A stretch of 64,000 bases of DNA from Nitrosopumilus cobalaminigenes (GTDB lineage Archaea; Thermoproteota; Nitrososphaeria; Nitrososphaerales; Nitrosopumilaceae): assembly GCF_013407145.1 (NCBI RefSeq), contig NZ_CP026993.1:1-64000 (forward strand), given 5' to 3'. Shown one piece after another: positions 20,654-22,105 of the stretch. The notes beneath the pieces were generated by a model, which saw only the letters and a program-made list of their open reading frames with translations, did no database searches and had not been told where the DNA came from. Positions within the stretch are counted from its first letter, which is position 1. Every line of letters begins with the position of its first letter. The position numbers and the translations under genes are program-made.

Positions 20654-21397
20654 TCATTTAATTGATTCTCCTCCATCTACTGTAAGAATTGCACCTGTAG
20701 TCCAGGATGCATCATCAGAGGCAAAATACAATACTGCCTTTCCTATCTCTTCAGGTTGTCCGATCCTTCCTAGTGGATGTTCATTATTCATGAATTCTTT
20801 ATCTTTTTGAGTTTTCAAAAATGGTTTTGTCATATCTGTATCAACTACTCCAGGACAAATGCAATTTACTCTAATCTTATCTTTAGAATATTCTAATGCC
20901 CAACATTTTGTTAAGAGGATTAAAGCAGCTTTTGATGCAGAATATGCATCTGCGTTAAATCCTTCATAGGCCTTTAGTCCTGCATCTGATGAAATGTTAA
21001 TAATTGAACCAAATGTTTTTTGTAAATGAGGAATTGCCTCCTTAGTAAATCTAAACTGTCCTGTAAGATTTACGTCTAGTACTTCATTCCATTCAGCTTC
21101 ATCAATTTCATGTAATTTTTTAATTTGTGGAAAAACCCCTGCATTATTTACAAGAATATCTAATTTACCAAATTTTTCAATAATTTCTTTTATGACATTT
21201 TTTACATCGTTTGAATTCCTAATATCAGCTGGAATTCCAATAGCATTTGGAATTTCTAATACTGCCTTATCTAATCTTTCATTATTTTTTGCAGTGATTA
21301 CAACTGTAGCTCCATTTTCTGATAAAATTTTTGCAGTTGCAAATCCTATACCTCTACTTCCACCTGAAACTAGTGCAATTTTTCCTGATAATTTCAA
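20654..21397 (-). CDS. Short-chain dehydrogenase/reductase (SDR)
   Basis: Classical SDR of 247 aa: cofactor motif SGGSRGIGFAT (about residues 11-21), NNAGVFPQ (about 85-92), catalytic Ser in INISSDAG (about 135) and YSASKAALIL (Tyr-x3-Lys, about 153-162). The C-terminus FASDDASWTTGAILTVDGG is typical of 3-oxoacyl-ACP-reductase-like members. Substrate not determinable. A TTAGGCA motif (21444-21450) lies about 47 bp upstream. Confidence 0.92.
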   Translation of the reverse strand: MKLSGKIALVSGGSRGIGFATAKILSENGATVVITAKNNERLDKAVLEIPNAIGIPADIRNSNDVKNVIKEIIEKFGKLDILVNNAGVFPQIKKLHEIDEAEWNEVLDVNLTGQFRFTKEAIPHLQKTFGSIINISSDAGLKAYEGFNADAYSASKAALILLTKCWALEYSKDKIRVNCICPGVVDTDMTKPFLKTQKDKEFMNNEHPLGRIGQPEEIGKAVLYFASDDASWTTGAILTVDGGESIK

Positions 21398-21520
21398 TAA
21401 TGTTTAGAGTAAATTTCGTAATTTATAGATCCATTAATCAAAATTAGGCATAAAATATTTCAAGAAATATATTAATTTCTTATAAAATTTAATATTAAAT
21501 TTTAAATAGTTAAAGTTACT

Positions 21521-21553
21521 ATAGTAATTAATGTCGAAAGATATAATTACTAT
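21521..21553. promoter_or_regulatory. Promoter with 10-bp inverted repeat for the structured RNA
   Basis: Perfect 10-bp arms ATAGTAATTA (21521-21530) and TAATTACTAT (21544-21553), with a 13-nt spacer. The TATA-like GATATAATT (21540-21548) overlaps the right arm and predicts a transcript start at about 21565-21570, exactly where the folded RNA begins. Binding of a protein here would block the TATA box. Confidence 0.5.
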
Positions 21554-21564
21554 CGACTAAATAT

Positions 21565-21663
21565 GCGTAACCCCGCAGAACGAAAAAGGTGATCAGACGT
21601 TAAACGACTGACAAAGAGAGGAAATCTCTCAGTGTTCTGTAGCAAAGGGGTCTACGCCTTTTT
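21565..21663 (+). ncRNA. Candidate structured non-coding RNA
   Basis: A GC-enriched island in an AT-rich spacer that folds into a closed three-way shape. P1: 21565-21574 (GCGTAACCCC) pairs with 21647-21657 (GGGGT, bulged C, TACGC). P2: 21575-21581 (GCAGAAC) pairs with 21634-21640 (GTTCTGT, one wobble). Two inner hairpins: 21593-21611 (TCAG/CTGA outer, CGT/ACG inner) and 21616-21630 (GAGAG/CTCTC). A T-run (21658-21663) follows as terminator. No reading frame explains it. Family not recognised. A GTGATCA then CTGA with 11-12 nt between loosely recalls C/D boxes, but the overall shape does not fit a standard C/D guide. Confidence 0.7.
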
Positions 21664-21670
21664 AATTTTC
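21658..21670 (+). terminator. T-run terminator of the structured RNA
   Basis: The closing stem ends at 21657 and is followed by CCTTTTTAATTTT, a U-rich archaeal termination signal. It overlaps the 3' end of the convergent gene at 21662-22105. Confidence 0.55.
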
Positions 21671-22105
21671 TAAAATATCTACAGATACAGATCCTAATGT
21701 TTCTCCATTTGGATTAATGATAATCGAAATTTCTTGTGTTTCAGAGATCATAATATTTTTCTCACCATCATAATCCCATGTATAATATTCTGAAATTCCC
21801 GTTTGATGTGGTGTACCTATGCGCTTAAAATCTTCAGAAAAATTAAATGAATTTCCATTTAATGTAATTGATAAAATTTTTGGGCTACTTCCATTTGGAA
21901 CAAATCTAAAAAAATATTCTCCTTTTTCTATAGTAAATGTCTCAGTATATTCTCCGTTAATGTAAAGTTCAGGATCTGCCAATGTCACATGAAATTGTAT
22001 GTTCTTTTTTTCAGCAGATTCTTCAAATGAAAAACTTGTGAATACAATCGCTAAAATAACTACTATTGGAACAATTATGATTTTTTTATTCACTGAAATA
22101 AGCAT
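21662..22105 (-). CDS. Membrane-anchored extracytoplasmic hypothetical protein
   Basis: A 147-aa protein with an N-terminal hydrophobic helix (IIIVPIVVILAIVFTSFSF, about residues 9-27) acting as signal or anchor, followed by a beta-rich domain (FHVTLADPELYINGEYTETF; TLNGNSFNFSEDF). No family recognised. It converges on the structured RNA. Confidence 0.6.
   Translation of the reverse strand: MLISVNKKIIIVPIVVILAIVFTSFSFEESAEKKNIQFHVTLADPELYINGEYTETFTIEKGEYFFRFVPNGSSPKILSITLNGNSFNFSEDFKRIGTPHQTGISEYYTWDYDGEKNIMISETQEISIIINPNGETLGSVSVDILEN

Follow-up and report, generated by a model that had tools for sequence, protein, structure and literature searches.

The window analyzed here, a 64,000-nt stretch of Nitrosopumilus cobalaminigenes DNA (contig NZ_CP026993.1, positions 1 to 64,000), contains a 264-bp spacer between an SDR gene (20654-21397, minus strand) and a gene encoding a 147-aa protein (21662-22105, minus strand). 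This spacer holds a putative RNA gene, referred to as copy A, which runs from an archaeal TATA box through a leaderless mini-ORF and a domain of helices P1 to P4 to a terminal U-run (Table 1). The RNA gene is inferred to be standalone and approximately 133 nt long; its transcription has not been demonstrated. The 147-aa protein has a hydrophobic N-terminal segment and no Pfam match, and its gene adjoins copy A in several genera.

Table 1. Features of copy A and positions of its two paralogues in the same genome.
Feature	Position	Strand	Evidence or remark
Conserved archaeal TATA box, TTAAATA	21502-21508	+	Start of the block common to the paralogues
Leaderless mini-ORF, ATG TCG AAA GAT ATA ATT ACT ATC GAC TAA (MSKDIITID*)	21531-21560	+	Nine codons plus stop
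P0, small hairpin in the ORF body (GTCGAAAG / CTATCGAC)	21533-21557	+	Mean z -2.7 versus codon-shuffled controls, classes A and B
Spacer, stop codon to P1	21561-21564	+	3-5 nt in 118/124 copies
P1 closing helix, 5' strand GCGTAACCCC	21565-21574	+	94% of cells paired family-wide; both-side changes in 6/10 pairs
P2, 5' strand GCAGAAC	21575-21581	+	96% paired; both-side changes in 7/7 pairs
J2/3, A-rich junction GAAAAAGGTGA	21582-21592	+	Near-invariant within the genus, variable outside
P3 hairpin, variable in sequence and length	21593-21611	+	Covariation in 7/7 pairs
P4 hairpin GAGAG-GAAAT-CTCTC	21616-21630	+	97-100% paired; loop GNNNT in nearly all members
P2, 3' strand GTTCTGT	21634-21640	+	Fold and covariation; P2 has 7 bp
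One-sided bulge at the P2/P1 boundary	21641-21646	+	Variable across members, mostly 3-7 nt
P1 closing helix, 3' strand GGGGTCTACGC	21647-21657	+	Fold and family-wide covariation
C plus T5 run (T5 = 21659-21663), presumed terminator and 3' end	21658-21663	+	T-rich in most members; paralogue homology stops there
Copy B	853557-853699	-	DNA search of own genome
Copy C	483389-483554 (L118 2970-3135)	+	Third, strongly diverged paralogue; weak model match

A sequence-only reading had proposed a structured RNA of no recognised family, equipped with a promoter and a terminator of its own and folding at 21565-21657 into a 10-bp closing stem with one bulge, a 7-bp second stem and two hairpins, followed by a T-run. 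The fold held, with all stems located as described; P1 comprises 10 bp, with C21652 bulged. Folding of positions 21545-21670 gave a minimum free energy of -34 kcal/mol versus -23.2 ± 3.0 kcal/mol for dinucleotide shuffles (z -3.6), none of 200 of which folded as well. The promoter assignment needed correction: the TATA-like element reported 25 bp ahead of this edge corresponds to TATAAT at 21541-21546, a sequence internal to the ORF and unconserved in the paralogues. The conserved promoter sits farther upstream, and in 109 of the 124 distinct copies its TATA box ends 22 nt ahead of the start codon; the transcript start is therefore expected near 21530 and not at the edge of the fold. The 5' half, with promoter and mini-ORF, had been overlooked. 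Homology between paralogues A and B extends from the TATA box through the U-run and not past it (DNA search; query positions 3-177 of 191), which defines the gene unit. The comparative data support the proposed structured RNA and its possession of a promoter and a terminator, transcription itself being undemonstrated.

DNA searches of the own genome and 60 relatives showed that 35 of the 37 genomes in the genus have homologues, in many cases two. Two covariance models were used, R1 from 48 sequences and R2 from diverse family members. Among 300 genomes of the class, R1 matched 159 and R2 160; the latter belonged to 17 genera, all Nitrosopumilaceae (assigned from the organism names of matching public contigs), and R2 gave zero matches in genomes of other families. 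Misses inside the Nitrosopumilaceae were few, and several of them were incomplete or very small genomes. The only R1 match outside this family (genome G131; weak, E 0.007) was discarded since it had neither ORF nor fold, and the weak model matches L106, L114 and L115 were dropped as false on the same grounds. With regard to a viral origin, R2 gave no match in 80 rescanned loci, a subset of the places where a 15-nt core pattern occurs in viral contigs. The RNA is present in nearly all Nitrosopumilaceae in up to three versions per genome. Two side observations concern single contigs: L099 (G185:C184), from a high-GC genome of this family, carries tandem members at 1195-1324 and 1501-1632, 306 nt apart, and a contig labelled "Hyphomicrobiales bacterium" (JABSRY010000148.1, L201 5924-6069) has a copy whose score is exactly that of the Nitrosarchaeum BD3 copies; this contig is probably archaeal and mis-binned.

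In the genus alignment, 91.8% of the cells paired, versus 87.7% in shuffles and 35-43% in slid controls, and 14 pairs were changed on both sides. Family-wide, both-side changes were found in 31 of 37 pairs, with a covariation of 0.386 versus 0.176 (shuffled) and 0.06-0.08 (slid); this alignment was fitted to the model and hence leans towards it. Helices P1, P2 and P4 were paired to 94-97% family-wide. Individual folds, which are independent of the model, showed P1, P2, P3 and P4 in nearly all of 27 members. The check that the stems be kept in homologous spacers was passed (89-92% of cells paired, 14 to 31 pairs changed on both sides), and there is little doubt that the structured RNA family is real. 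G-U pairs outnumbered A-C mismatches (125:32 and 87:48), indicating that the plus strand is the RNA. The minus strand folds equally well, but it is the plus strand that carries the TATA box, the ORF and the U-run; together with the G-U excess, this led us to reject both a minus-strand RNA and a minus-strand riboswitch upstream of the SDR gene.

The mini-ORF was found in all 124 distinct copies, with nine codons in 115 and eight in 9 of them; starts were ATG, GTG or TTG, and stops TAA (72), TAG (39) or TGA (13). Internal stops were absent from frame 0 of 70 distinct 30-nt ORFs, versus 55 and 22 of the 70 in the other two frames, and indels within the ORF were multiples of three. Shuffling of the stretch from TATA box to stop yielded such an ORF in 2.5% of cases versus 122 of the 124 real copies. 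In two members with unalignable 5' sequence (L111 and L113), nine codons are nevertheless present at TATA+21/22. Some class B copies lost the ATG, and the next codon turned into TTG or GTG, giving eight codons; this ATG-less group comprises L048, L049, L055, L133, L163 and L197. A sequence-blind pattern (TATA, 20-25 nt, ATG, eight codons, stop, short gap, RCG) matched exactly three sites in the 1.56-Mb genome (G000), namely paralogues A, B and C (reversed-pattern control: 2). Elsewhere in the family it recovered the three known copies each in G035, G012, G117 and G063, two in G100 and none in G106, and in 20 genomes from other families its hits did not rise above background. With the leaderless mini-ORF as its 5' end, the RNA does not count as purely non-coding. 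That the mini-ORF is translated is very likely from this comparison; no Ribo-seq data are available.

A sequence search with copy A missed class C, which is present in 33 of 60 genus genomes and has its own P1, P3, long apical P4 hairpin and conserved unpaired ACATGTTATC. A nine-codon ORF is present in 26 of 26 aligned class C copies, 21 nt after the TATA box and ending in TAA, TGA or TAG. Class C has no P0 (z -0.2) and retains the ORF, which is thus not a by-product of P0. Promoter, mini-ORF of nine or rarely eight codons, three-way-junction domain and U-run form a conserved gene unit that occurs in up to three classes. Copies cannot be counted as independent events; the weightiest independent evidence comes from the three paralogue classes and from those 5' ends that cannot be aligned yet retain the same ORF.

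The nucleotides of the ORF are class-specific, with values of 0.88 (A-A) and 0.89 (B-B) versus 0.64 (A-B). Within single genomes, the structured domain showed concerted evolution between copies A and B (permutation p 0.001), whereas the ORF showed none (p 0.92); partial homogenisation of the domain but not of the ORF suggests a shared partner. The synonymous share of the differences between close ORF pairs, which are not independent, amounted to 24/138 (0.17; expected 0.22), 1/32 (0.03; expected 0.26) and 8/93 (0.09; expected 0.19). There was no excess in any class, close pairs differing mostly non-synonymously, and the peptides vary between classes and between genera. Frame, length and placement of the ORF are kept and the peptide is not, so that the identity of the peptide is probably irrelevant; it is translating the ORF, rather than what the ORF encodes, that seems to matter.

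Of 122 copies, 106 are followed by a convergent first gene and 16 by one on the same strand. The neighbours of copy A are constant across several genera and those of the other copies shift; over all copies, the neighbours include a Pfam-less 140-160-aa protein, a DUF1246/DUF1297 protein, and TFB-like and CorA-like proteins, the latter two named by eye from their sequences. Since downstream genes are mostly convergent and neighbours shift, the RNA is inferred to be standalone and trans-acting. In several complete chromosomes, copy A sits at about 20 kb, counted from the first base (G000, 21.5 kb; G035, 20.4 kb; G012, 22.5 kb; G006, 25.2 kb; G063, 23.7 kb; G106, 18.5 kb), its position relative to the numbering origin being conserved.

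Comparison with Rfam 15 gave no hit in the 64-kb window, and the best matches had E 5.9-8.3, far below gathering, in agreement with the sequence-only reading, which had recognised no family. The criterion for a C/D box sRNA was not met (best sR52 at 10.3 bits versus a gathering threshold of 50), and no tRNA or tmRNA was found at the locus (ARAGORN for tmRNA). Archaeal SRP RNA (RF01857) and RNase P RNA (RF00373), likewise standalone archaeal structured RNAs, were ruled out by single matches elsewhere in the genome, at 114399-114710 (minus strand) and 988888-989166 (plus strand), respectively. A riboswitch or attenuator would call for a conserved co-oriented downstream gene, which is lacking with 16/122 on the same strand and unconserved neighbours. 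Purifying selection on the peptide, one mark of a dual-function sRNA, is not seen either, the synonymous fraction being at or below expectation in all classes. By contrast, one trait expected of a translated small RNA, an in-frame ORF conserved across homologues, is present (124/124 plus 26/26).

Several known systems share single traits with this RNA. Bacterial tmRNA (ssrA) is also a stable structured RNA with a ribosome-read short frame and a loosely constrained peptide; in contrast, the RNA described here has no tRNA-like end or internal resume codon, and its ORF is 5'-terminal with the start codon at the expected transcription start. Leader-peptide attenuators of the trpL type and trans-acting leader RNAs such as rnTrpL have a very short ORF just upstream of helices altered by the ribosome. 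The present RNA resembles them in placing its very short ORF just upstream of helices, but mostly lacks a downstream structural gene, has no run of control codons, and does not conserve the peptide. The dual-function small RNAs SgrS/SgrT, Spot 42 and RNAIII combine a standalone sRNA with a small ORF, as is the case here; in the present RNA, however, frame and length (nine, rarely eight codons, in three classes) are conserved and not the peptide. Tan1 of the Thalassoarchaea, a euryarchaeal ncRNA of 229 nt (PMC5069720), offers an analogy as another structured marine archaeal RNA whose function is not known; the relevant passage says nothing of an ORF. The RNA was not described in the open-access literature searched. 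It fits none of the known RNA classes tested here and is considered a new, previously unlisted RNA family, with the reservation that absence from Rfam and from this literature is no proof of novelty.

Overall, we favor a standalone trans-acting RNA whose fold is gated by translation, at a probability of roughly 0.45; transcription, translation and the partner are inferred. The fixed-length ORF at the foot of the fold suggests that a translating ribosome switches or times the RNA. A ribosome would initiate directly on the 5'-terminal AUG, read nine codons and terminate. The 30-nt ORF corresponds to about one ribosome footprint, suggesting that one ribosome is loaded at a time. Going by bacterial and archaeal toeprints in general, a ribosome that has the stop codon in its A site is predicted to reach about 21570-21572 with its leading edge and would thereby cover 6-8 nt at the start of the P1 5' strand. 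Occupancy would open P1 and ribosome release would allow it to close, and the closed P1-P4 domain may then bind a common partner, be it a protein, the ribosome or a ligand. The state of the RNA would in this way reflect or react to initiation and ribosome recycling on leaderless mRNAs. Ribosome gating of P1 as the working principle is inferred without structure probing and remains tentative, the odds being slightly against it. In classes A and B, P0 would be expected to impede leaderless initiation unless it is regulated, and the high within-class conservation of the ORF nucleotides could possibly reflect a base-pairing seed rather than a ribosome timer.

Among the alternatives, a ribosome-directed RNA, in which the ORF loads one ribosome that the domain then retains or acts upon, whether for hibernation, sequestration or a rescue-like function, would account for an ORF of about one footprint, a stop codon 3-5 nt from a stable helix and the presence of three paralogues; Haloferax sRNAs with ribosome occupancy but no translation have been reported (PMC12482152). 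It is unlikely in that there is no tRNA-like domain and no tmRNA call, the variable stop codons argue for normal termination, and titration of ribosomes from three low-copy genes would need very high expression. Similarly unlikely is a base-pairing regulatory RNA, whose 5' 30 nt would serve as a seed specific to each class, or as a dual-function ORF, and whose domain would be a stability or protein-binding module. The class-specific ORF nucleotides next to a domain common to the classes, and the lack of variation at synonymous sites of class B codons 2-4, are in favor; however, a seed needs no exact frame, stop codon or fixed length, and class C codons vary freely.

The remaining explanations are weaker still. 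In a cis-acting attenuator or riboswitch, P1 and the U-run would form a conditional terminator under leader-ORF control. In its favor, a ribosome at the stop codon would cover most of the P1 5' strand in an attenuator-like manner, and 16 copies have a same-strand gene downstream; the convergent gene in the other 106 of 122 copies and the differing neighbours render this very unlikely. The same holds for an mRNA whose 9-aa peptide is functional and whose fold is a structured 3' UTR: K3-D4 is found repeatedly among class A-like members from several genera and MSLV is kept in B peptides, but no class shows a synonymous excess, peptides differ between classes and genera, and the fixed spacing from stop to P1 would be unnecessary. 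A plain non-coding RNA, its ORF a by-product of promoter and hairpin constraints, can draw on the P0 hairpin constraint in classes A and B, and on the small weight of the missing UGG: this codon never occurs at the stop position, but chance alone would give only about 3 (own estimate from base frequencies). It is the least likely of all, given the ORF in 26/26 class C copies despite the lack of P0, the ORF indels in multiples of three, and the absence of frame-0 stops (0/70).

A bolder formulation of the translation-gated reading is that the RNA represents a new regulatory class, whose built-in ribosome gate on the closing helix is a leaderless mini-ORF of fixed length that works whatever peptide it encodes; we regard this as plausible without giving it the better odds. 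The combination of a conserved folded domain and an ORF of conserved frame with a free peptide can be tested directly in existing cultures. Few archaea on Earth are as abundant as the Nitrosopumilaceae, which include the dominant marine ammonia oxidisers and whose RNA regulation is little known. If the ribosome gate is true, it would have been kept as three paralogues in this family, and the RNA would provide a concrete handle on how archaea might sense leaderless translation and ribosome recycling.
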